Source: Saksenaea vasiformis B4078 | Lineage: Eukaryota > Mucoromycota > Mucoromycetes > Mucorales > Saksenaeaceae | Assembly: GCA_000697055.1 (NCBI GenBank) | Contig: JNDT01001565.1 | Coordinates: forward strand, 112,707 to 176,706 | DNA: 64,000 bases | Reading direction: 5' to 3' | Part shown: one piece after another, positions 1 to 60,519 of the stretch | Numbering within the stretch: position 1 is the stretch's first letter | How the letters are laid out: every line of letters begins with the position of its first letter | Made by a program: the position numbers and the translations under genes | The notes under the pieces: model-generated | Database searches by the model: none | What the model was told of the DNA's origin: nothing | Seen by the model: only the letters and a program-made list of their open reading frames with translations

Positions 1-3000
1 CACTTGCCCGCAGCATTCTTGCTCCAGGAACATGAGTGGTGTGCCAAGGTTCAAACGGTTATTTCATGCACCGCACACCGTCTGAAGGGCCAGTTCCACT
101 CGCGAAGTCACACCTTGTCGGAGAATCGATTTGGTGCGACAGTAATGATTGGCTCGTTGAGGAAACTTGAGCCCTAAGGGCACACATACGCTATCCAAGC
201 TAGAGCCAGGTAATTCATAATGTATCGCATGGTATCGTTGTTACATACAGGTAAGAGCACCCTAACATAATGTTACTATTTTTACTAAATAGAGGTTTGC
301 TTCGGATATTAATTATGTTTACAGCACCTGGAACTTGCAAGCTTTTTCTTCGGCTCTGTCTCTGTCTCTAACATCCACGCTAAAGCTATCAATTCGTTAC
401 GTGAAACAATTACTCCTGTACATTTGTCTCTTGTTTAGCTTGCGCAACTAATGACTCGAACAGTCTTTATTGTGTCGGTGTCTGTTATCCGACATTCAAG
501 TAAGTGCTTTCTCTCTCCATCAGCAAGGAAATCTTCCTGAGATGTTGGAATTATATGTATCTGTATGCAAATAACTGTACAGTACAAGAGGCAGAAGGGA
601 GGTTTTAAAGAAGGGAAAGAATTACTACAAGCTTTATAGGAGAATTGGGAGAGGCGGGCCCTTTGGTTGTATCATTCTTAGGAAATTGATTTCTCACGCT
701 ACAACCTCATATGTCTTCCCTTTCCGATGAAGGGAGAGCATGAAGATTACATAACCAATCCAAATGTGAGTATGAGCAGTAATACCTTGAGCAGCTCCTT
801 CCCTACTGAGACGTAATCAGTAAGCAACCCTATTTGTAGCTTGGTGAGTCCACGATAGATGTCTCGGTCAAGATTAACCAATAATTTACGTAGGCGATAC
901 ACAATAGCTCAGGCACTTGTGAAGCCGCGGTCCTTGACTGTCTAACTAGTTGCTCAGATAGTGAGCGAGAGACGGAAGCAACTTCATTTTCGGAACCTAC
1001 ACGTTCAATACGCTTGTCATAGCACGCGTGCAACTTGCTGAACATGCATATCACGTATAACTAATAAATTCTCCAGACTTGTACCACACGTTAATAACTG
1101 GTGCACCTTTGCAGTATCTCTAGAACGACTTGACCAGGATGACAGGTTTATATCACGCTGTCTCTCGTCTAGTCCCCAATCTCCTAAGTGGCATCCGGTA
1201 GGGATAAATATTTAAAGCAGCTCTATTTCTTCGTTACATCCTCAGTTACCTATACGTTCACTCGGAGTTTATCTCCATACTCTCAGATCCAAAACATCTC
1301 AATACCTATAGAGGATGAAGTGAGGGCATAGGGTACAAGACCCTGATGTTTACCGGAATATATATACATACGTGAAACATATACGGTTCATGCAGAGCTT
1401 TCTAGCGGACATCAAGCATTCTCGTCGGACAACGTTAACGTTTGGCAAACAGGCATGGTAAGTAGCATTTTTTAATACTATACGTCTTGGTATAGGACGC
1501 AAGAAGTACAGCAGAAACTGATGCTGTCACAAATTTGATGCCATGGCTGACATCCACTGGATGTAACTCCACCTTGCGGCAAAAACATGTTCATATGACA
1601 TGATCGCTGCTAAGAAAATTCCCAAAAGACTAGGATGGAGAAAACATGATGCAGATGGTCAAAGTAATCAAAGCATCAGCTCGATATCTGTCATGCTGTA
1701 CTGCATAATGCATCCATTTATGTTTTAGGCGCAGTCAATGTGATTTTCGATATCGTGACAACTTTTATAGTTGGTGTATGGCTAGATATGAGCGTGTTTT
1801 ATTCTTAACTTTATGGAGCAGAAGTTCCCTATCAAAGATTTTGTGACATAGCTAAACCTTAAAAAAAAGGGAAAGGACAAGGCTTTAAGCTCAGATTTAT
1901 CGGAGGCGAAGTGTGCAAAGTTTCATCATACGCGTGATCTCAGCCCATAGATGATTTCTTCAGGTAGAATGCGCACTTCTCAGCTGCTCACATGGTTGCC
2001 ATCAATATTTGGGTTCTAAATTTAATGTTATTTTCTCTTAGAGGCTGCTCTTCTTACATTCATGCAACAGCAAGCTTTCCGCTATAAGCGGTGAACTCAT
2101 AGAACGGGCTTCGCAAGGAAATATGGGCTGTTGCTTTAGGTTTCACTGACGCAAACCATTTAAAAGGAACTTTTTTTTTCGCCATCGTTATTCGCAGAAT
2201 ATCCCTGGTAAGCATTTGGCTTGGGCTGCATGACCGATCTCGGCTGTAGTGCAAGTCGGCTTCTGATTTTGCATACGTGATTGGCGTCCGTGATGCGCTG
2301 ATTTCTTACGCCCCATAGATTCCTACTAATGTCGCGTTTCACCAGATATCTGATGCACGCCCACAAATAGTATATCGGCCGTCCCTTTGTTTCTTCTTGT
2401 CTCGATTCGTTTATTTGGTCGTTAGCCGCTGTGTCGTGACATTCACTGATGTTCATGGTATAGATGCCATTACGGAATGTGCATTTGAATGCACATTACC
2501 TTGATGTTCTTCATTTTGAACAAGCAATAGAACGAACATGTTTAAACGCAGTTTGTCAACACCTATTCACATATTACATTCATGGATAAATCCTCTGTTT
2601 TGGACGTAGCACGGTGCTATGGACTCAAGTCCAAAACACATAGATTATGAGATTGAATAATAGATAACTATATTCTTCACATACGACGCGTTAAATGGTA
2701 TCTATCAATTTGACACCAACGTAAATCGTTTCATCATTGAATGGTTCGATATTCATTTATGCAGACTTGACTATTGGATTCAATGTCATGTAGCGAGATT
2801 ACGACTACATTGATTTTCAGAAGTCCGACATTCTATCTGGGGTACGTGGCAAGGATCGGGGGAGATGCGATGCCGGTCTCTGCAACATATTGACTAGACA
2901 GATGGGATTCACATAACGTATCTTACAGCAGTTAAGAGTTGATATTTATAGGACAGAAAAAGAATAACCCGCATGAATAATCTTCACCCTCGATTAAAAG

Positions 3001-3155
3001 AAAGAAACAATTACAATGAATGACGTTGACAAGAAAAATGAATGTGGATTGCAAAGAAAAAGAATGAAAGGCTGGAGAGGAACTGTAAAAGACGCAAGGC
3101 ATATACACAAACAAATAAAAAAAATAACCACATATCACATAAATAAAGGGAGGCA
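1..3155. other. No recognisable gene
   Basis: Only short open frames (under 100 codons) occur on either strand, without recognisable domains, and no tRNA-like or repeat structure stood out by eye. Probably intergenic or relic sequence. Confidence 0.5.
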
Positions 3156-4620
3156 CTAGAAATGCCATTTTGGTTGCTCAGCTGTCCGGCTTCTTCTTGG
3201 TTTTGAAGTACTACGTTGAATAACTGGCGGTGATGACTGACGTGAAATTGAACGTTGCAACAAGCGTCTGGGATCATTTGGTATTACATCAGATACTCTT
3301 CGTGCTAGTCGTAGTTGCTGTTGTTGTTGTTGTTGCTGCTGCCGATTGGCGATAGGTGCATTAATAGGCCACGTGTGACGCTTGACCAACTTTGTTTTGC
3401 TGAAATCTTCATCGTCTTCAAAGTCACTAAAATCATAATCGACAAGGACCTTTCCGGATAGTTTATATTGTTCGAGGAGAGCCGTTTGAGCTTGATCGAT
3501 AAGGTTTTGGAGCATGACGCGTAAGCGTTGGAAAATCTGGTCACTTTCCAGCTGATTATCGAGCCACACATCCACAAGAGTATCCGATGCCACGGGAGCC
3601 TCAGGTTGATCAGGTGATGGCGGTGTGAACTTTTTTTTTACACAATGAAGTCGTCAGCAAACAAATCATTTACCCTTCCTATGCAGCTAGCCTTACCGTA
3701 TTTTCTTCCTCATGTACGTCAGACACAGGTGTGGGTGGAGCTTCAGACCTAATAGAAAATTTCTTAGTCAACACCAGCCAAAAAGCAGGGGTAGCGGGAA
3801 AAGATTTGCTCACTTTTGTAACCGCTTTTCCAGTTCTGCAATTTTCTCATTTTGACGTCGAACAGTAGCCTCCAAGGTGGCGTTAAGGGTCAATAAAGAT
3901 TGTTTTTCGATCTCCAAGTCGGCGATCTATATATTTATGGTCAGATGGGTGTACGCGCGTACAATCAATTTTTTTTATCCTTGCCTTTCTGTTTGCTCTC
4001 GCTTCATCCAGCCACTCTACAGCCTCATCATCATCTTCTTCGTCTTCATCGTCATCAATCGTTGCCGTAGCAGTAGCAGCAGGAGGAGTGGTAGTAGGAA
4101 CCTTGGAAAGAAACTGTCCTCTGTTGTTCATGATCATTCCTTCTTTTACTTTAGCTACAATTTTGGTAGGTGGTGGTGGCGGCTCATCTTCTTCAGAAAT
4201 ATCATCGTCTGTGTCTCCATCGATGCTGTCAATGTCATAATCATCTTCATCAGCGGACGAGGAAGAATGTAAAATGGATGGTGGTTTTGATAAAGTGGAG
4301 TTACTTCTTTGCCTTAATAGATGATATGGATTTACACCAAAAGTGGAAGAGGCTGGCGCAGAGACCTGTGAGGCGGGTTTGTACCAGCTGGGTGAGCTGT
4401 GATTGAAAAAGGAAAAACCAGAGGCGAAACTGGACGGAGTGAAGATGGTGGGGGGAACTCGAGCAGAAGAAGAAAATGAAGATATTGTGGACGGTGAAGA
4501 AGAAGAGGTCGATGAGGAGTCATGCAATGTAGGTGACTGATGGTGAAACGAGAATGGTGAAGAAGGACGGACGATATTCACTGCTTTTGCTGGTGGTGAG
4601 TGATAGTCCTTAGCAAACAT
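3156..4620 (-). CDS. Acidic, low-complexity coiled-coil protein, function unknown (4 exons)
   Basis: Spliced by hand as 4620-3985, 3926-3814, 3748-3697 and 3629-3156, giving 424 residues with phase kept at every junction. The first 130 residues are Ser/Pro-rich and look disordered. Acidic Asp/Glu runs and a PPPPP stretch follow (about 120-205). A Leu/Ile heptad segment (about 213-250, starting IADLEIEKQSLL) is a short coiled coil made mainly by exon 2. A second acidic patch precedes a Gln run (about nine residues) and a basic Ser/Arg-rich tail. An in-frame TAA immediately upstream supports the chosen ATG, unless further 5' exons exist. The first intron begins with GC instead of GT. I do not recognise the family. 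Composition suggests a scaffold or regulator, but this is only a guess from sequence character. Confidence 0.7.
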
Positions 4621-38106: not shown

Positions 38107-40655
38107 CATTTCAAGCAAGCTATACAAAATGCGTTGAAGGCGGACACCAACGAGAAGAAGTACGAAGGACTGCAAACTGTGTTTGGGAGATTCGGGTATT
38201 ACTACCCATCGAAAATTTTACTTGGTACTCTGTTCCTCAGATACAACTGAAGCTAACTGTCTGATCATTTAGGTGGACTACTCGCTTGTAAGAAAGCGAG
38301 TTCAAAGACACGGAATGGAGACGAGTGTGGATTGGAGAACAGGCAATCCAGTGAACACGTAGCGGAAAACGTTACGAACGCAATCAAAAATCACAAATAT
38401 TGGAAAGTCATATGTAACTCTCATTCGGTGTCTGTAATAGGAACTGGATCAACTTGCGATAGGTGGTGATCCTGGAGTATTTTTCGTGGATAGACTAGAA
38501 AATTGGAAGGAAACGACGAAATCTGAAGCAGCAATTATCCAGTTCAAAGACGCAAAGCCGTTGTATCATATTCTTGACGATTCTGAGCGCCTTCAAGTGG
38601 AGCAAATCTATGACAAGGCATTTTCCGATAGCGAACCTGCGCATGTTGTAGAAAAGTACCCAGCAGATTCTTTCGAAAATTGCGGTAAAAGCAACGGGGA
38701 CTTGCGAGACGAAGCTGAAGGCGTGAGTTGCTTGCAAGTTCTAAACCAGAGCAGCAACAGAGCGATGGATAATGGACATGAAAAATTGCAAAGCGAACCT
38801 GACAAAGAAATACTCAGCGACAAGGATTCCGCTGGAAATGGTGGCACCAAGAATATTAACGTAGAGCGGGAAGCTGTTTGTCAAGGAAGTAGAGAGGCAC
38901 AAAGAGGTCCGCACGATGTATCCAGCTATAAAGGCAATTTGCGCAGAGACTGGCAAGACGCCAATCTGAATACAAGCGCAGGCAGTCAACGAAACAGGAC
39001 TCGGGGAGTCAGATATGTTGGGTCCCTTTTTGGGACGGAAAACAGCTTTGATACACTAATTATATTATGCCGAGACGAGGCTAATAACGGGTTTCCAGAT
39101 GTGCAATACGATTTTGGAGACATCTATAGATATGAAAAGGAAGACATTGACAAAGCAATTAAATGGTATCAAAGAGCGGCAGACCAAGGAAATGAAGAGG
39201 CACAAATCCAACTTGGGCATATTTACAGATGGGACAAGAATGACATTGACAAAGCAATTGAATGGTATAAAAAAGCGGCAGATAAAAGAAATAGAGATGC
39301 ACAAACCCAACTTGGAGATATTTGCATGGATGAAAAGAAAGAATTCGAAAAAGCAACTGAATGGTATCAAAAAGCGATGGATCAATCCACGACGTATCAA
39401 CGCTGTATTTATGAAGTGGTGATGGATGAGAGTATGCTGATGATATCTGGAGATACATATAATGTTGAACATGAAATGAAGATATATCGTCGACGGAGAC
39501 TTGCAGATGCTCTGACCAGAGTTGGAGATATGTACAGAGATAGGGATGGGGTGAAGAAAGACATGGACAAGGCAATTGAATGCTATAAAGGAGCAGCGGA
39601 ACAAGGAAACGAAAATGCTCAATGGAGACGTGAATATGCGCAAAACAAACTTGGAGATATGTATAGAGATGGGGATGGAGTGGAAAAAGACGTTAACAAA
39701 GCAATTGAACTGTACAAAAAAGCAGCAGAATAAGGACATTATGATGCACAATGGAGACTTGAACATGTGCAAAACAACTCGGAGACATGTATAGAGATGG
39801 GAACGGAAAGAAAAAAGAGCTGATCAAGGCAATTGAATGGTACGAAAAAGCGGCAGCAAAAGCAAATTATAATGCGCAACGGAGACTTGGAGTCGAGCAA
39901 ACGAAGCTTGCGGATATGTACAGAAATGGAGATGGAATGGAGAAAAGCATACACAAAGCAATGGAATTATATGAAAACGCAGCATATAAAGGAAATTGGG
40001 ACGCGCAATGCAGACTTGAAGATGAGCAAATCAAACTTGGTGATATGTACAGAAATAAAAGGAAAGACATGAACACAGCAATTGAGTGGTATAAGAAAGC
40101 GGCGAATAAAGGGAACAGTAAAGCACAAACCATACTTGGAGATACATATTTTTCCGGAGATGAAGTGGAGGAAGACATCGATGAAGCAATTGGATGGTAC
40201 AAAAAGGCGGCAGATCAAGGAAATGAACGTGCGCAAACGAAACTTAAGGATATTTACAGAGACGAAAAGAAAGATATCGACAAAGCAATTAAAGTGTATA
40301 AAAAATGGGCAGATCAAGGAAATGAAAGAGCGCAAATGAGTCTTGGATATATTTACAGAAGAGAAAGAAAGATATCGACAAAGCAATTGAAGTGTATCGA
40401 AAAGCAGTAGATGATGGAAATGAAGATGCGCAAATGGAACTTGGGGATATTTACGGAGCTGAAAAGAAAGACATCGACAAAGCAATTGAATGGTACTAAA
40501 AAGCGGCAAATAAAGGAAATAGTCAAGCACAAATCAGCCTTGGAGGTATATATTACTCCGGAGATGGAGTGGAGAAAGACATCGACAACGCAATTGAGTG
40601 GTACCAAAAAGCACCAGATCGAGAATATGTATATGCACAAATGAGTCTTGGATAG
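38107..40655 (+). pseudogene. Broken Sel1-like repeat protein gene
   Basis: From about 39095 the plus strand encodes roughly 14 Sel1-like (SLR/TPR-type) repeats of about 33 residues. The pattern is AQxxLGDIYRDEKKDIDKAIEWYKKAADQGN. Proteins of this class are helical scaffolds. Four repeats carry an extra QxRLxxxQ linker, suggesting local duplication. The frame is broken by TAA at 39731, a missing base near 39775, a further shift near 40370, and TAA at 40497; it ends TAG at 40653. The 5' part is older-looking decay. One frame (38107-38247) reads FKQAIQNALKADTNEKKYEG then TVFGRFGYYYPSKILLG before a TGA. An apparent exon starts at 38441 after an AG, reading ELDQLAIGGDPGVFFVDRLENW, so no ATG start is visible for the main frame (38486 is GTG). 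No product of normal length can be made unless these are sequencing errors. Confidence 0.8.
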
Positions 40656-43114: not shown

Positions 43115-45087
43115 CTAAAAATATAGACAAGGGATGCTTACCAAAGCATAAACAGAGGCACCTAGCAGACCCAAGGTGGTGAGAACCTGGGGAAGGGCAG
43201 CCGTGCCGGCATTGTTTGGCTTTTCAGCTGCATTGGCTTCAACCGTTCCGTCTTCAGGCTTCTTGTCGTTGCTAGCCGTAGCGGTAGGCTTTGCAGCTGT
43301 CGTTTGTTGAGCAGTAGTAGGCTTGGGAGTTGGAGTGACAGGCGTGGTCTTGTTCTGGGTGGGAGGGGAGACGACCTCTTTAGTAATTTCGACTTTGTAC
43401 AATTCTGCAACGGCCTGCGACTTGGCGATGATGTATTCGATCAAACCCCAGCCAGCACCACCACCATTCTGGTTAGGTGCATCAACAGACTTCCATAAGT
43501 TTTCGGTAGCTTGTTCATAAGTCCATCCGTAGTTGATACCAGGCGAGCGCTGCTTGATCTCGCTGTCCCACTTAAGATCGGGAAGAAGGAATTCGTGATA
43601 AGCAAGAACGCGGTTGGTGAGAGTGTAGTTGTTGAAGAGAACGGAAACGGTATCTTTGAGGTATTTCTCAAACTTGGCCTTTTGCTTGGGGTTCTCAAGC
43701 ACGCGATTGATCATGACTGCCTCGGGCTTTCGGGCAGCGTAGTCTTCGTAGGGGACCTTGATAAAGTCACGACTTTCAGCAAGGTTGACACCGAAGGTAC
43801 CATCGTAATCCTGGCCGATATAATACCACTTGTCGTTTTGGGTAGGATCGCGATAAGCTCCGAGATTGGAGGTATACATCCAGTAACCATCCCAATCGGC
43901 AGTAAGGTACTCCATAACCATGAAGCGGAGGAATTGATCCATGTCGAAGATTTTTTCGAAAGCTTCGATCTGCTTATCATCCTTGACATCAGTTTCAGCC
44001 CATGCCTTGGTGAGGGGTCTCAGTGCAGACCAGTCTTCAGGAGAATCCTTGTTAGGCTTCCATGCGTAGTAAATGTCATCCGTCTCGGAATACTGGAACG
44101 AAGCTCCGGTAGCACCGTCGTAAAGAGGACCCATTTTCTCCGGGGGCTTGCCATTGTAGAACATGGCACGGATGAACGAGTATTCCTGGGTATCGTCGAG
44201 CAAGTTGAAAGTACCGTAGCCCTCGCCGTCAATAAACAGACGAACCATGTTAGCACGGTTGGCATAGGTACCCATCGATCGCAGAATATCGGCATAGAGC
44301 TTCTCGCGCATTTGGGTAGGATCCATGTGTTGGTGGCGGATCTTGAAGTAGTTGCGGTTATCCAAGTATTTGCCCTCGGGCAAAGTCCATTTCCAGCTCT
44401 GCTTAGCAGTATTCTTTTTTCCGCCGGGACGGTGGATGCCGAATTGTGTGTTTTCGAACGTATCTACCTTCTCAGGGCCAATGAACGTGAATTTACAGGG
44501 GAACATTGGTGCTTTCTTTGTTGGTTTGGCGATGAAATCGGTGAGTTCCTGATTCTTGCAAGTCATGAAAACAGAGGGGATGTAATTTGTGTCCCACATT
44601 GGCACGTCAGGTTCATCTCCGCGCGTCCATTGAGGCTAATTTTTTTTTGTTTAGTCTGATCGCAAAACCCCGGGTCACACCTACATTTTCTTTGATAGGC
44701 CATGGCAACTCTGGAATATTGGCGTACGTCACGGGGCGTTCGTAAAAGTCATTGCGCGTTGCTGTGCGACCGGCATCGAGCTTGCGATCGAATCCTTCAG
44801 CCTTTCCATCGACAACATACTATGCACAATTTATTTAGCTGATTATTTCCTCGAGAAAATTTTTTAAATGAATATCAAATTACCTTGTAAGTTTCGTTGT
44901 CTCCGAGCTCAGCTTTTCCGGTGAAATAAGGTACATCTGGATCGGAGGCTGCAAGTTTGGTGTTCTGGCCATTGATGGAAACTTGAACGTCTCCAGAAGT
45001 GCCAGGAGCAATTACTTTAAATTCGACTGAGGCAGCATTAGCTGCAGCAAGGAAAGATAACGCGATCAATGAGAGTGAATACTTCAT
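43115..45087 (-). CDS. CotH-family protein, secreted and probably GPI-anchored (3 exons)
   Basis: Exons 45087-44884, 44819-44685 and 44635-43115 give 619 residues in phase. The family is named after bacterial spore-coat CotH kinases. In Mucorales it forms a set of cell-surface proteins, some of which bind host cells. Residues 1-18 are a clean signal peptide ending in AAANA. The CotH domain includes RNYFKIRHQHMDPTQMREKL, GYGTFNLLDDTQEYSFIRAMF and YYIGQDYDGTFGVNLAESRDF. The segment aligned with the known host-interaction motif of Rhizopus CotH3 reads TSNLGAYRDPTQND; it keeps GAYRDPT but differs before it. A Thr/Pro-rich stalk (about 515-560) and a hydrophobic C-terminus (ALPQVLTTLGLLGASVYALV) fit a GPI anchor. 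Whether this copy has an adhesion role cannot be told from sequence. A long antisense frame (43511-44659) is a shadow. Confidence 0.93.
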
Positions 45088-52253: not shown

Positions 52254-54247
52254 AGTTGGTCATGAAGAAGTGAAGACAAGAAGGAAAAAGATAACAAAGA
52301 AAAAAAAAAGTAGCACCAATTTGTCGCGAAACACAGTTAATTTCCTATTACAGGAAGAGTGAGCCTAGCAAAAAAAAATTTAACTGCCCGAGGATCTTGT
52401 TTCTTTGTTGATACAAAGAGCTGGCGTAATCTTAATCACTCGCCGTTACGATATGCAACCTTCCAGGAAATTCGTTTACAGCCATAACCGGAGCGTTTCC
52501 AGCGTCCGAAAGAGGTCCGTAGAATCCCGCAATCACTTGCCAACGCGAATGTGAATCTCCGAGACGAAAATTTTACTTTTGTAACTGCGGTTGCTAGGGT
52601 GGGAATACAAAGACATCCCAGCTTTATACAGATAACTTCAGCGTGTCCAGGTATCACAAAGACTGCAAAGTGGCTATCCTAACCAAGCTATTCATGTATC
52701 ACTTTGTAAAGTGGTCAACCCACAGTTCTTAACAGTGTTGCGCTGTTATCTCAATTGTATCATTTTAGGTTTAAACTACTCCATTGGTTCTATTTATAAT
52801 GATCGTTGGAATAAGGGAAGCATTTCGTCCATTATGGCCATACAGTTCTTTGCAATAACCTCGTTACGGAGTCCAAGCAGGCCTGATTTGTTGATCGTTG
52901 CCGACCTTGCTTTGAGGATACAAAACTCTTTCTTGCCGACGAATTCTGGAAATTTACACTTAACTGCGGTATTGACTCTATTGGTTAGGAGCTCAGGAGA
53001 GTATTCCTTATTTCAGTTCTGAATAACGTTTCTCTTCCTTCTTTAGCTATGGAAACCCATTAAAGTGCCTCTGAGAAACGAGCTTTGATCCGTCATGTAC
53101 GATGATTTCATTGACTAACGGTGGCAAAATCATCGCCCTTCTCTGACGTCGTACAAGCCTATAGGTGGAAAAGGGCAAAGTCATGATGTTTGTGTGCGAA
53201 CTATAGTAAACTCGATTCATCCAACACCCTTTCTTTATTAGTACAAATTTTGAATGGTGTAGCGATAGTCTACTTGTTGTCTGACCATATGAAGTAGTGC
53301 TGAGATGGCTCATACGCTCTCTTCAGACCATAAAACCATAAAACTGGTTGGCCGTCGCTGTTATCCCCGGATTTGGCAGACATTTTAGCTTCTCTACAAC
53401 TTTGGAGTAAGAGAAAGGTGTACTCAGGTCCAGAAGCTCGTCTCGGACACAATGTTTTCGGTCTCTTCCCTGCTTTTGCATCCATTACTTTGATTTTTTT
53501 TTGTGGATGCATGAACACACGGTGTAGGTAGAGCGAGGCGTTTGTACTACTTCATGAGCAAGGGATCAACAGGACGGTTATCATATTGCGCTTCGTATCA
53601 ACTTCTACCCGTCGAAACGGCTGCTCCTCACTTTGGGCGGATGTTCAGAAGGCTAATGGTACAAAATTATACCCAATTGGAAGATAATTGCTAGACATAC
53701 GAGGACTAGGTAGTCATCATTGTTCCAAGAAATGAAATATCATTGCGATGGAAGGGGCACAAGTGTTCTAATAGATATACTTTGAAAAATAAACTGTAGG
53801 CATATCCGCGTTTTCGTTTTGAAACAATTTGAAGGGTCCTCGATGTACGACCTTTTCTAGTCATACTCTCATCATCGAGTCTCGTGGTTCTTGCACAGTT
53901 TCAGTACTGGCCGCTTTCCCGTTTCCTTGTAGTTTCGGATGATTTGAAAGGTCCCTCCCATTATTCGAGATGCTACAGCTTTATTCAATTCTGATTTAAG
54001 TCGCTACCTACATATATGCTCCAGCAGATGAAGATATACAAAAACAGCTGTCTTGAAATCAAAGTTGTCGATTCAGATCCCGAGCTATTGAAAGTCAGCT
54101 TACCAAACTGTTGATTGGGTAAGCGGAATACAAAAAGATATCGGAAGGGCCCTAAGTCACAAAGAAAATAAGAATGTCGTCACAAACATTTGAAATGGTA
54201 CTTACGAAGCTCTCCCAGTGCCTAACGAGAGGCTAGTTGGCCGTTCC
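52254..54247. other. Region between Gbeta promoter and Fanzor 3' flank
   Basis: No supported gene. The right half (about 53960-54247) is the downstream region of the Fanzor gene and is the place where a guide RNA would be expected. A 7-bp hairpin (GCTTACC 54098-54104 with GGTAAGC 54118-54124) lies there. A 5-bp hairpin at 54210-54231 sits just after the stop codon. Confidence 0.4.
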
Positions 54248-57200
54248 TTACGGCCTAGCACCACCAAGGGGTGCAGGTTCTTGTTGTTGTTGCTGTTGTG
54301 GACGACGTAATGCAGCGGGCCTTGTCTGCAATTGCATGTCACCTTCCATGTATGCGACCAGAATCCGCCGCATGTTTCTGCCCGCATTGATATCGCGATT
54401 CCAAAACTAAAGAAAACCTTAGCTTCATACTTTCACACAGGAATTACATACCAGTGGCCTTTGTTCTCCATGTTCCATGCCAGTGCCTCCCAACTGATGT
54501 TGGTTGCACAATTTAATCGGATAGACCTTGCAGCGGAAATCGTTCAAAGCTATCATGAATGCTGTTAATGAAACTTGCTTTCGGTATGATCTGATCCTCA
54601 CGTAATAGTTGCAACTCAGGGCATTGCGAAGTCCTTTGCAATATGACATTTTCTTCATTCAAACAGTATCTTTTGCGACGATCGTCGCCCGGACGACGGA
54701 GCAACATCGTTCTAAGGATACACAATGTTAATTGGTATGAGCTTGCAAAAACCAGTGACTTACTTGTGCTGGCACCGTGAAGTGGGCGTCACAAACTGCT
54801 GCGTGTCATTGTCACAGCTGGAGCACACTTTTGAAGTGTTATATTCGTCTATTAGTATAACAAGGGACTTCTGCGCGAGTATTTTCCGGAATTGCTAGCA
54901 TGTGTTTTTAAGTTAGCATTATCCGAATGGAAAGTATGTAACATATACCTTCACTGGTAACGGACCGAGACCCCTCATTGTAGGCTTCAAATCAGCATCA
55001 CCATATGCAACGATGGTCGGCTGCTGCTGTTGTTGGTGAATATTTTCTCTTAACCGCCGCCGCCGGCGCTTCCTTTTCGATCTTGTAGATTTATAATGCG
55101 GTTGGATCAAATCCTATCCGAAACGTAGACATTAGATCTATAATTAGAGATGTTGTCACTTACGTCTCGGGGCGAACCCGTAGCTACCCTGTCAGCCAGT
55201 ACATTTAACGTACTACGTCGTGCAGAGTACAAGAGCATCCGATTTTCACGATGGCGATAAGAACAATTAAAGTCGTGCATGCTAGTGACCACTTTAGTAT
55301 CGTTGAATATTCTCAAATAAATGTTATACTTACGGTCGATGTATATTACTGATTGTTTGTATGTATCTTTTGAACTCCATTGTGGTTGCGACTGTAGGCG
55401 GGTTCTCCGCATGGATGCATCCCGACGTGATTTTAATTCCGTTTGCTTGGCCCACGAGAACATGGATCGGAGTCTTAAAGACCTGTTAACGATCATCGAT
55501 CATCATATGGCAAAGTGGACTTACTGGTATTCATTGTTGCTAATTGTGGCTGTGTGAGCATTGCGCAGCTCTCGAGTTACAAGTGGCTCGTTGGTGTCCA
55601 CCGCGCTGAACAACGATCGTATGCCCGGGTCAAGTCCCACGATCCTTGATCCCGCGAGACGCTCCTGTGCCAGACCTGTCGGTTCCTTGTTAAGGTGATA
55701 AATACCCTTCGTCCATGAGCCAAGGTCCATGTTCCGGGGTAGGAGCCGAAAATCCCTTTGGGAGGAGGGAAAACGTTCTTAACAAAGTATGAGGACAGGA
55801 AGAAGCATGCCATTTTCCTCCTACCGTGTTTGCGACACTCGAATACCACAGATGCGGCTACACCATCCGTTTCAAAATAGTAAGCAAATTCAAGAGCAGT
55901 ACGTTCAGCATTAACGACAGCTAGAATATAAATTAATTAGCAGCAGTTCGGAAGCACAGCGACCTACGTTCATTATTCCACCGCCAGCGATTTTTCTGAC
56001 ACTTGTCGATGTTAAATAGTTGTTCCCAAAAATTTTCTCGCCAGACGGGATCTCGACAAAGAGCGTCAAATTCTTTGAGACTGCAATACGGTAGTTGTCT
56101 CCATCTTGGATTCTCACACTAGAATCAGAGCATTTAATGTACATGACGACTTAAAACCAGGATACGCTCACTTACCACAAACAGTGGAGGAACAGCCTCG
56201 TTTGCAAGAAAGGCATCACGTAAGATTTTCCATAGACCTCTGCCCGTAATCGGAAAGTAACCGACTTGATGTGTTGCAATAGGCAGAAGTGACCAACGGC
56301 TACCGTCATATTGAACTGTGTACGGATACAACTCGTACATGTATTTCACAATCCTTGGAAAAAGTGGATGGGTTCCTTCATCCTCTGGATCGACCTCGTC
56401 AATCAGGATATCACCGAGGTGAGTCTGGTACAGATTGTATTGGATCCTGTGACAGTCGATATGATTAACAATGAAATTAATCACAAGGTATTTACTCAAA
56501 AAAAAGTCAGCAGTTCGCCTCTGAAAGGCATATCTTGCCAGTGATGGTCCTCTAGTGGTTCATGATTTGTGATACGAGTAACGGCGAATCGAGCTAGAAG
56601 AACTATTGTTAGTGAGATTTATTCGAACTTGTTTCGTACCATGAGCCGCGGGTCCTCCTCCAGGTAAGAAGCCTTGATGGCGCTCTTTCAAACCACGAAA
56701 ATAGGCCAACCATACATATCGCAAATATGTCGAGACATTATTCACGAGGTGCCTGCGAACATCTATGGGCATGTTAGATCTATAATCATTGGAAGACTAT
56801 CTCATACTTTGTATTGCGTTGATTGCAAATGGATCAGGCATCTCGATGAAAAATCCCTCGATCTTTTCGATAGCGTACAGATCTATTATACCAAGATTAG
56901 TGTCATGCATTTTCAATCGATCAATGCTAACTTACATCCACCATGTTCGTCCTTCCGCAACGGCTCGAAGCGATCAATCGCCGTGGTCCAAAGGCTTCGT
57001 TCCCATGATGGCTACAAAATAAAGGCATGGATACTTGACCACTTCCCTGCATGTACACACTTACGGTTTGGGTAGTGTTGATGTGTAAGGGCCTGTACTG
57101 AACAAATCTGAATGCCGCTCTCCAAAATTCTCAAGTAGCAATTGGTGGAAATGTGAAGTTTCCGTGGTCGTGTCCCTCTTCCGCCCAGCGACGGACGTGT

Positions 57201-57485
57201 AGGTTTGCCAGGTTCAAAGCGTCACGTCGAAGGACGTGATATTGCTCGGCGATATGCCGGAAACGTTGCTACATGAAATATATGATTAAGCAATGGATGT
57301 ATCGTAGTTTGACTCACATTTAGATGGCCAAACTGTGGCCTGAGAAAATTGGATACTTTTATTTTTCTTGTAACCCGTTGGAAGCGTCCTCGATCCCGTG
57401 GCAAAATCGAGTGCCTGTAGCGTTGCCTCTGCCGTTGTGCGGGTGAGCCTACTCCTTCTTCTTCTTCCTCGACAATAGGTTCCAT
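54248..57485 (-). pseudogene. Fanzor-type (TnpB-like) RNA-guided nuclease gene, 17 exons, with two apparent breaks
   Basis: Fanzors are eukaryotic TnpB relatives, carried by transposons, that use an RNA guide to cut DNA. Exons: 57485-57318, 57268-57065, 57011-56936, 56882-56808, 56762-56640, 56593-56496, 56446-56176, 56118-55968, 55920-55825, 55777-55525, 55482-55334, 55291-55164, 55113-54949, 54894-54764, 54711-54602, 54561-54431 and 54406-54248, about 828 codons. The split RuvC domain is complete. RuvC-I is RIVGLDPGIRSLFSAVD, with the catalytic Asp. After a GDADLK block comes LVILIDEYNTSKVCSSCDN, with the Glu shifted as in Fanzors and the first Cys pair. A second Cys pair is in RPLVCNSC. 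RuvC-III is FWNRDINAGRNM. The N-terminal half includes LKEFDALCRDP and the block before KCQKNRWRWNN. A TGA lies in frame at 57131-57133 (exon 2), and one extra T in T8 at exon 6's end gives a TGA and a shift. All other junctions keep phase. Its size suggests the Fanzor1 class. Confidence 0.85.
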
Positions 57486-57689
57486 AAAAATAAGTAAAAA
57501 GTGGATAGGAGGGTAGAGAAGTAAAAAGCTGTTTTGGAATGTGGTCATTATGTGTTTTCATTGTTGTCATTTAAAATTAATCATGAGGTTTCTTTGTTCT
57601 TCTACAATGCTCAATATCAGGTCATGATCCTGTTTCGCAGATAAACTAGCCACATGTGCGCAACTTGTTCTTTGTTTTACTGCCGCATG

Positions 57690-59345
57690 AAGAGGCAGCA
57701 TATGCAGGATCAAGGAGGTGGACGTAACCAGCACGGACATAGTTCATTCAAATGGCTGCAAGGACATTGGATGCGAGCTCCCTGAGAGTTACTTGCTTTG
57801 AAAACGCACGAGATTATGTTCAGACCATACACAAACAACAGTGTATCCCTCCTTTTCTTTCACTGTGAGTGTCTAGACTTTTTGCAGGTGCTGCTTTTGA
57901 CGCACTCTTATGTCGCTCACTTTATTTGGGATTCAAAATAAGATAGCTTTGTTGCGCAACTACATAGAAAACACCTAGTCACTCAAAACGTGTATCAGTC
58001 CTCCATATTTTGAAGAATAACTCACGAAAAAAGGCTGCAAAAAAGAACCAAAACTCATTTATGGATGAAGGATCAGTAGGATTGATAGATAAAGAAACAA
58101 GCAAGCAACACAGTCTGTGCTCAAACTAATCCCGCGGTAGAAATCAGAATCATATTTACGGCAGTTACCAATTATTGGATGGCAATGACTCTGACAATGA
58201 CTGAAAAGGATGTCGGAATACGATAGACACAACCCTTGATGCAACGGCTGACGTCCCTGAGGGATCACTACGACCTTGAATCGTTCACAAAGATGATGAT
58301 TGATTGCAGCATCGCCAAGTACACTGTCATCTCTATCGCCTTCCCAAACACCATCACCCTCATTGTATTTGTTCCATGTGGCTCGTGCATGGATGAAACA
58401 TATCCGCAAATGAGTGAAGGTTGGCGCTGTAACCGGAAAATAAAAAAGCGCACCGACAAATTATTACTCCCTTGAAGTCGCTAATGTGAGAACGGGATCC
58501 TTCGTGTGCCATGGAATAAAGGACAAAGTTTATTGCAGATAATCAGCAACACACATCTTTCTCGCAATAATTTGACGAAGATTAAAAACTGGTGCGCAGC
58601 TTTCCAACCGCAGATTTTTACGAACATGGAAACAAACAGCTACGTGGAAAGCTGGCACAATCAACTCAAGACGACATACCTTGGAAGAAAACGCAACAGA
58701 AGAGTAGATCGCTTGATCTATATCTTGACGCATGATGTAGAGTTCGACTTCAAGATGACCACAGCACGCGTAAGCGCAAATGTCGGAAGAATGAGGCCCG
58801 CAGAAAGAGAGAGAAGACGACGAGAGATTGCAGCTGCCCAGATACCTAGTGCTGTAGTTGACGATATGGTCGCGGGTCATACTGTCAGATCATTCGCACA
58901 GGAGGGCGTGGCATATAATATTTCTGTCGAAAATTCGAACATGACAGCATGCACCTGCAGAGACTTCGTCTGGCGCCAAGTAGCATGCAAACATATGTAT
59001 CTCCTCCAGCGTGCCAATCCCAACCTAAACGTCCTTCAAGGTATTGTAGAAAACTACTTGCATACAGCTTCTAACGCGTAATGCTGTTAATAGTGTCTAC
59101 TTACTCACATGTGACATCAACTGTTCCAGTTCAAAACACGGAAGATGGCACATTGGACTTCGCGTCACAGAAGACAGTCTTGGAACCGAGAATGCAAAAC
59201 TTCCTGCAAGAGTTCCAAAGCTGTGAAGGATGCTCGCCTGAAAAGTTTCTGGAGATAAAGAAGTATTTTGATGCTATGGAGTATGCTTGGAGCAAAGAAG
59301 AAGTGTCTCCCAATACGAATTTTGTTCAACACAAAGATAAATAAA
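57690..59345 (+). pseudogene. Decayed Mutator-like (MULE) transposase
   Basis: Plus-strand fragments in changing frames match a MULE transposase. A frame from 58061 begins MDEGSVGLIDKE. Near 58236-58360 there is LTSLRDHYDLESFTKMMIDC continuing SIAKYTVISIAFPNTITL, the region of the second catalytic Asp. An intact 191-codon frame (58506-59081) has NSYVESWHNQLKTTYLGRKR and the SWIM zinc finger CTCRDFVWRQVACKHMYLL (CxCx9CxH) that ends MULE transposases. A tail frame (59129-59344) includes FQSCEGCSPEKFLEIKKYFD. Stops and shifts upstream of 58506 make a full protein impossible as read. N-terminal traces may reach about 57700. It is divergent from the Fanzor gene, with about 200-570 bp between them. 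Confidence 0.8.
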
Positions 59346-60519
59346 GAAAAATGGTCACATTTCGATTTCAATGACCGAATAAAAGTTTGTGTAATAAATC
59401 GCCAACGCTTGGCCCCCTCAAGGCTTGACCATCGTTGCAATCGTCTACGTGTTTTCTTTAAAAAGAATATTGCTTCAACTTTTACTCTGGAGAAGAACAC
59501 CAGTTTTGATATCGCAGACGGCTAGAGAGATGACACCTCTCCGACAAGCGGCTCCAGATAAGACAGCGACTAGAAGCTAGTTTAGTCATGGAGACATAAC
59601 TAGACTTTTACTGTTTCCGAATGACACTAATGCTAGAAATGCACAGTGCTCGGAATGGACTTCAAACGGCGCTTGCTGCTTGGCAAGATATTTTTAATTC
59701 AACACAGCACTGCTGACAAGTAATACAGCGTTTATTACGACATTTTCTGCGCTAACTTCAGAGCTGGTTTTCTGCAAGTCGAAATTTGGAAGAAGCATCA
59801 ATTCGGAAACGCTGGTTCGCCTTATGTTGGCATATCCAAGTCCTTGCTTTGATAGTTAATGTTACGTTCATTCCTGTGTGCTTGCTTGCTTTTGTTCTGG
59901 TTGACGAATGTCGGCTTAAAATCACATTATAGACTATCGTTTTCTGCTAACAGAGATTGATAACAGTTTGTTGCTGCGACATTCTCATTATCGATCATTA
60001 GAATTTTGAAAGAGTAAAAGCTGCGCAAGTATCCCTTGTTTATAGGGGACTGGGTGCATTTTCTGTGCTCTTGTCCAAGTTTATCCATTTGAGCCCAACC
60101 TTTGCGATTCGCTCACATTGTATGTATCTATTCCTCATATTCACATCTTCGCAAAGAGTAGCTACGATGCTTTACGTTGAGTTTGACTTAAAACACTTCG
60201 TCTGCCATATCCATACAACTGATCTGCGTCCATGTGGTTGATTTAGTTCTGTTTATGGTGATGAGATTTCTGTATTTCTTGGACAAACATTTCCGGTCCA
60301 TTCTTTGCTAGAATCGCTTCTCCATCGAAGAGTAAGGCTGTTTACTTGCACGACACAACAATGTATTTTTCATTACTTTTTTTTCTGATAATTCTTACGA
60401 TGTATGCAGCACGTCAGATTGCTGGTCTTCTAGACACGCTATCCAGTTGACAATGGCAGCTAGGCAGTTCATGCTAAACATTATTCAAATTTTTAATCTT
60501 AAGTTGGACTCGTATCGCA
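59346..60519. other. Region between MULE remnant and RAD7 3' end
   Basis: No gene seen. If the MULE and Fanzor form one element, its right terminal inverted repeat should lie here, but I could not identify it by eye. Confidence 0.45.

Follow-up and report, generated by a model that had tools for sequence, protein, structure and literature searches.

Does the Fanzor gene on the minus strand of the window, the 64,000-nucleotide stretch of DNA analysed here, still encode a nuclease, and what has carried it through the genome? We characterized this gene (57485-54248) together with its other genomic copies. The explanation that best accounts for the locus as a whole, and that we hold to be very probable, is a decayed Fanzor1 gene of a Mucorales fungus, the gene being cargo in a repeated element that descends from a Mutator-like element (MULE).

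Gene model, decay and family assignment

On reading both strands, we found that the gene runs from an ATG at 57485 to a TAA stop codon at 54250-54248 on the minus strand. An earlier description made without database searches (the sequence-only reading) had placed it at 54248..57485, which is correct, and had left the strand unstated. The 17 exons of that reading were also borne out: a 17-exon model fits, with GT..AG introns of 40 to 57 bp, modal exon lengths across 19 aligned copies that total 2478 nucleotides (nt), a multiple of 3, and a frame-specific ratio of nonsynonymous to synonymous differences (pN/pS). The copies were collected by a DNA search of the 38.7-Mb genome that contains the window (666 contigs), which returned 51 matches, 6 others among them being near full length at 93 to 98% identity. 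The alignment holds 19 of these copies, the window copy included, and part of the splice-site calls depends on it. An early 16-exon model that read through intron 11 was dropped once the other copies revealed a 22-bp gap.

Exon 1 (57318..57485) opens with the ATG, and exons 3 (56936..57011), 4 (56808..56882), 5 (56640..56762), 7 (56176..56446), 8 (55968..56118), 12 (55164..55281) and 15 (54602..54711) were placed by copy alignment. Exon 9 (55825..55920) contains the motif FETDGV, exon 10 (55525..55777) the RuvC-I motif GLDPGIRS, exon 13 (54949..55113) the motif VAYGDAD, exon 14 (54764..54894) the RuvC-II motif IDEYNTS and a CSSC knuckle, exon 16 (54452..54561) a degenerate second knuckle, CNQH, and exon 17 (54248..54406) the RuvC-III motif WNRDINAGRN and the stop codon. 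The three motifs named by the sequence-only reading, GLDPGIRS, IDEYNTSKVCSSC and NRDINAGRN, were thus all found in the window copy. The RuvC Asp, Glu and Asp follow in order at codons 55631-55629, 54846-54844 and 54394-54392 and are kept in 11 of 11, 12 of 12 and 11 of 12 of the copies covering each. Copy L036 (contig C538) has GLDAGIRS in place of GLDPGIRS.

The claim that the exons are joined in phase did not hold for the window copy. Exon 2 (57065..57268) contains an in-frame TGA at codon 102, the T of which is common to the window and copy L031, the other 12 copies shown having a C. Exon 6 (56496..56593) is shifted by +1 through an extra T, its T run exceeding that of 9 of 13 copies by 1 base; copy L032 has the extra T as well. 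Exon 11 (55334..55482) lacks 22 bp that are present in all 8 other copies covering this exon. Disabling changes are widespread in the family: each of the 7 copies that extend over the full set of exons is broken by two or more such changes, and among the 19 aligned copies 17 have one or more within the exons covered, the two copies free of them (L045 and L047) covering exons 12 to 17 only. The window copy reads as a decayed Fanzor gene with three lesions, from which protein would no longer be made. In copy L034 (contig C606), exon 1 carries a net insertion of 681 nt whose ends read like inverted GGAGGTACCCC and which is perhaps another small transposon.

Among the 7 copies spanning all exons, pN/pS was 0.29 in the gene frame and 0.98 and 1.45 in the frames shifted by one and two bases, which contain 27 to 45 stops each; this frame-specific signal is far beyond chance. 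Pairwise pN/pS was about 0.2 between diverged copies and 0.81 for the close pair formed by the window and L031, as is expected if copies decay following insertion. The Fanzor gene was under purifying selection during the spread of the family, and single copies decay.

Judged by its sequence, the window gene is best assigned to Fanzor1. The Fanzor1 signature has been given as D-X(125,275)-[TS][TS]-x-x-C4 zinc finger-X(5,50)-RD (PMC3627910; this paper, PMC10432273 and PMC11423790 are cited here from parts of their text), and a D-to-TS gap of 197 and the sequence TSKVCSSC in the window protein fit it. Comparison of a natural stretch of the sister copy L033, covering exons 8 to 17, with a five-sequence Fanzor/TnpB-like profile gave an hhalign probability of 98.3 and an expectation value (E) of 1.1e-14, which applies to that single comparison over 54 columns. 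When the L033 stretch was included in a six-row profile, the top solved structures were the Fanzor1 proteins of Guillardia (GtFz1; 1.9e-7) and Spizellomyces (SpuFz1; 2.2e-7), closely followed by TnpB-like L79 (3.9e-7) and LaTranC (7e-7). In a profile without the L033 family, LaTranC and TnpB-like proteins lead and Fanzor1 appears at 2.6e-4 or weaker, and a three-row profile gave weak matches only, mostly to an unrelated toxin.

Several results weigh against the assignment. The second zinc knuckle, described by the sequence-only reading as a second Cys pair, is instead C-x2-H (CNQH) and lies about 72 residues past the first, so that the strict C4 finger of the signature is absent. PF07282 gave 21.9 bits on the window read-through, below its cut-off of 26.3. 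The L033 stretch, used as a single sequence, found no match among solved structures. The window read-through had a single database relative, P0001, among 8000 scored candidates. P0001 shares the motifs TDGV, GLDPG, GD-D, EY-T---CS-C and WNRDIN in this order. Searches of PHROGs and NCBIfam with the L033 stretch, phage searches and a viral-contig scan with P0001 all returned no match. The Fanzor1-class call of the sequence-only reading is supported in so far as the gene is Fanzor1-like, the six-row family profile ranking GtFz1 and SpuFz1 first. The same reading held that no single open frame reveals the gene. Exon 14 alone reached 23.9 bits with PF07282, again under the cut-off, and a PF07282 scan of the genome, in which 150 of 388 candidates were scored, found at least 137 places, none of them on the contig of the window, so that the gene is easily overlooked by single-frame scans.

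The places found by that scan include several dissimilar Fanzor or TnpB-like families. One further locus, L052 (contig C419), holds at 999-3302 on its minus strand an open, intronless, Fanzor1-like open reading frame (ORF) of 768 residues with RuvC and Zn-ribbon motifs, which scored 32.5 bits with PF07282 and whose RuvC-I reads GADPR. Its protein lookup returned no match among the 8000 candidates scored, and the protein folded alone had a mean predicted local distance difference test (pLDDT) score of 32.4, too poor for a structure search.

The host was placed through a Sec39 gene in the window, which is 80% identical to that of Apophysomyces sp. BC1034 and 76% identical to that of A. ossiformis. 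Apophysomyces belongs to the Mucorales, as does Parasitella, whose Fanzor is taken up below. This gene places the host in the Mucorales, close to Apophysomyces, in keeping with the Mucoromycota genome that the sequence-only reading had proposed.

The MULE-derived element and the exchange of its modules

The element that carries the Fanzor gene (54143..59403, minus strand) is about 5.3 kb long and repeated in the genome, with its right end at 54143 and its left end, which is the 5′ end in the Fanzor orientation, at about 59403. Fifteen other genome matches stop at query positions 3556-3562, corresponding to window 54145-54139, and the left end is likewise common to other copies. Target duplications of about 10 bp were found within one contig at C538 and, matched up by us across contig breaks, for C606/C303 and C243/C244; C56 can be paired with C298 through a match of 8 bp. 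MULE target duplications are about 8 to 11 bp long. The sequence GTCACAAA is common to both element ends and lies near them. Outside the left end, TGG or TTGG occurs at a distance of about 6 to 9 bases in 9 of 16 left flanks, which could reflect a target preference or a motif like a target-adjacent motif (TAM); we claim neither.

The plus strand of the element holds the C-terminal part of a MULE transposase (58221..59344, with the last exon reaching to about 59344). Positions 58221-58787 align at 45% identity to residues 272-469 of the transposase ORF of L053 (at contig C421), which scores 32.9 bits for the MULE domain (cut-off 27.6) and also lies above the cut-off for Transposase_mut, and within the plus-strand ORF 58485-59081 a SWIM finger scores 20.1 bits (cut-off 19.6). 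Nowhere in the window is there a match to residues 1-271 of the L053 ORF, and the segment 58221-58589, in which introns were not modelled, is interrupted by stops in every frame in 13 of 13 copies. On these two grounds we do not read the transposase part as a working transposase. We infer a non-autonomous element of MULE origin.

Its left end (58581..59403) behaves as an exchangeable module, at which divergence between copies jumps from 1 to 5% to about 25%. Between copies L035 and L036 the difference is 1.2% over 57500-58500 and 25.3% over 58581-59045; for L032 and L040 compared with the window, the corresponding values are 2.1% and 2.7% versus 26.5% and 27.6%. The shift starts at about 58580-58680, varying by pair. 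In the reverse direction, contigs C537, C525, C456, C552 and C420 carry the same left-end stretch at 92 to 97% DNA identity (query 1237 on, equivalent to window 58722 on), while their Fanzor matches are mostly 56 to 63% identical in protein, up to 72% in a short match on C420, and each has the hairpin described below. In these five contigs, 4,138 to 4,179 bp separate the hairpin from the nearer edge of the left-end match. Copies of the window family have a left-end match that starts closer to the gene (window 57486-57492); its distance from the hairpin is 3,227 to 3,367 bp in five of them and 3,919 bp on C606, which carries the 681-nt insertion in exon 1. These patterns indicate that Fanzor cassettes and MULE ends have been exchanged, in both directions.

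Some observations tell against a MULE-derived element with a Fanzor gene as cargo. No target duplication is visible at the window copy, at C233 or at C606 itself, and the window copy could be a chimeric join; many contigs end inside the element. An inverted repeat between the 200-nt ends was scored as highly by 280, 197 and 21 of 300 shuffles for the window, L036 and L033, respectively. The C-terminal transposase exon (58581-59045, plus strand) has a pN/pS of 0.24 among 10 copies of the unswapped type and is stop-free in 9 of the 10, unlike a long-dead transposase; this selection could result if working MULEs donated sequence by gene conversion or if the truncated protein were put to use. Because no significant terminal inverted repeat (TIR) was found, we term the element MULE-derived and do not class it as a MULE. 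A TIR spotted by eye (TAnGTCACAAA) was rejected as not distinct from shuffles.

The missing duplication at the window copy and the lack of a significant inverted repeat are also what one would expect if the Fanzor gene were a host gene with a MULE fragment inserted into or beside it. Yet 15 other matches stop at the same right end, the 10 right flanks inspected are mutually unrelated, left ends too are common to the copies, and the left-end match stands in the expected position at 11 of 44 hairpin sites, Fanzor and left-end module recurring jointly; an explanation by a host gene is scarcely credible. Could the window copy nevertheless be an intact and working Fanzor1 gene whose lesions are sequencing or assembly errors? 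The assembly consists of 666 contigs, many terminating within the Fanzor element, and the exon 6 lesion is a single extra T within a T run. However, the TGA recurs in L031 and the extra T in L032, so that each is present at more than one place; the 22-bp gap breaks the reading frame and shows cleanly in comparison with 8 other copies; and disabling changes occur, within the exons covered, in 17 of 19 aligned copies. We regard an intact window gene as quite improbable and retain a decayed Fanzor1 gene carried by a MULE-derived element.

The hairpin across the stop codon and a proposed role for broken copies

A conserved hairpin, SL1, lies across the Fanzor stop codon (54226..54259, minus strand). 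On the Fanzor strand it reads GGCCGT AAGGA ACGGCC, spanning the TAA, with arms at 54255-54250 and 54244-54239 and outer pairs between 54259-54257 and 54234-54232. A search with the 34-base SL1 pattern, allowing up to 3 mismatches, found 44 places in the genome and none with the reversed control. Five of the six stem pairs are intact in all 44 places and the sixth in 42, and the pair 54252/54242 is C-G in 21 places and A-T in 23, a compensatory difference. SL1 occurs in two Fanzor lineages that are about 60% identical in protein, and at least 38 of the 44 sites, a lower bound from hand-entered rows, have a Fanzor match on the same strand no more than 600 bp upstream. In six aligned sequences, 98.1% of SL1 cells pair, compared with 15 to 46% when the partners are slid, and in one pair both sides have changed.

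Conservation extends beyond the stem. The 68 nt past the stop codon have 4 variable columns among 12 copies, compared with 35 of 241 in introns 12 to 16 and 17 of 110 at four-fold sites (sampling P 0.011, relatedness ignored). The last 28 nt of the right end are more variable, at 8 of 28 columns, or 17 of 28 when L032, which has a rearranged end, is included. By our reading, the window and L060 are identical at 28 of 30 nt past the stop codon and diverge beyond. A second stem, SL2, was dropped, as the window and L060 fold differently past SL1.

In Fanzor1 omegaRNAs the first stem-loop is conserved, and the remainder has been suggested to be unconstrained and varies (PMC11423790, Cell 2024); Saito and colleagues describe a GtFz1 omegaRNA that overlaps the end of the coding region (PMC10432273). 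On the strength of these two parallels, SL1 is probably the 5′ part of an omegaRNA scaffold, which we predict at 54143..54265 on the minus strand, arranged as in PMC10432273, and whose guide would derive from the flanking DNA below 54143.

The statistics of the fold are less favorable to this assignment. The covariation score was reached by 29 of 500 shuffles and the changed-pair count by 327 of 500, the compensatory difference may have arisen once and been passed on to many copies, and the 128-nt right end folds no better than shuffles (z -0.48). An Rfam scan of the window returned no match. SL1 might instead be a terminator, an mRNA stability element or a transposase-binding site, as its place at the 3′ end of a gene and close to a transposon terminus would suit, and the region as a whole is not unusually stable. 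But SL1 overlaps the stop codon and sits about 80 to 115 nt inside the element end, and the near identity of the window and L060 just past the stop, followed by divergence, is the pattern reported for the first stem-loop of Fanzor1 (PMC11423790). A function of SL1 other than as a guide-RNA scaffold is, in our estimate, rather unlikely.

The following course of events is proposed. An intact Fanzor protein would be loaded with omegaRNA read from the right end of an element, with SL1 as the 5′ portion of the scaffold and a guide derived from the adjacent host DNA. This ribonucleoprotein would cleave either the site that excision had emptied or the homologue that lacks the element. Repair of the gap with an element copy as template would put the element back, and a switch of templates among copies in the course of such repair would yield shuffled modules. 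Transposition would probably be supplied in trans by the MULE transposase of another element. Since its hairpin is unchanged, the window copy, its protein lost, may still give guide RNA to the protein of other copies. Generalized, broken Fanzor copies would be guide-RNA loci in which the coding part decays and the hairpin is kept, the few protein-making copies, even of the lineage that is about 60% identical, being aimed by the guides of many dead ones, and RNA-guided breaks with template-switching repair would shuffle cassettes among MULE ends. We regard this generalized scheme, in contrast to the course of events proposed first, as speculation and rather unlikely.

The role of Fanzors for their transposons has been stated to be open (PMC10432273). 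In the present genome, two Fanzor lineages sit on almost identical MULE ends, with a common hairpin, graded decay and a related transposase ORF. With this material one could test if dead copies continue to guide and if module exchange is driven by Fanzor activity.

Elsewhere in the window, a CotH kinase family gene lies at 43118-44635 on the minus strand (Pfam 114 bits), and ORFs for Sel1-repeat proteins lie at 38441-40407 on the plus strand, within a region of strong GC and AT skew (0.22 and 0.28).

Comparison with known systems

The window Fanzor belongs to a kind already known since 2013, when Fanzor1 was reported in MuDR elements of Rhizopus, Phycomyces and Mucor (PMC3627910); new here are the hairpin and the two-way exchange. 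In a limited literature search we found no earlier description of a hairpin common to two Fanzor lineages or of module exchange in both directions. Like the window element, ROr-4, PBl-3 and MCi-4 are Mutator-type elements of Mucorales with Fanzor1 as cargo and short target duplications (PMC3627910). Their TIRs resemble those of confirmed MuDR elements, their duplications measure 9 bp and a MuDR transposase is absent, whereas the window element keeps a C-terminal transposase part, shows duplications of about 10 bp in its family and no significant TIR, and has exchanged modules.

SpuFz1 of Spizellomyces punctatus resembles the window gene in being a RuvC-type nuclease in a transposon-like element, Spu-1, with a conserved noncoding right end and many partial copies (PMC10432273). 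A single ORF encodes it in a locus spanning about 2.1 kb, and 19 of the 42 loci that have a full or partial gene are full-length; the window gene, in contrast, has 17 exons, its 7 full-span copies are all broken, and its hairpin overlaps the stop codon. In this last respect it resembles GtFz1 of Guillardia theta, whose omegaRNA overlaps the coding end (PMC10432273). The first RNA stem-loop, to which the window hairpin probably corresponds, is conserved for GtFz1 and for PpFz1 of Parasitella parasitica; the published SL1 has seven pairs, compared with six contiguous and three outer pairs in the window (PMC11423790). Module exchange, too, has a precedent in the Sola2-Fanzor elements DFa-1/2/3 and in Mucor MCi-2, in which one part is likewise near identical and the other different (PMC3627910). 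Those elements are Sola2 or unclassified, whereas the exchange described here concerns a MULE-derived element and runs in both directions.

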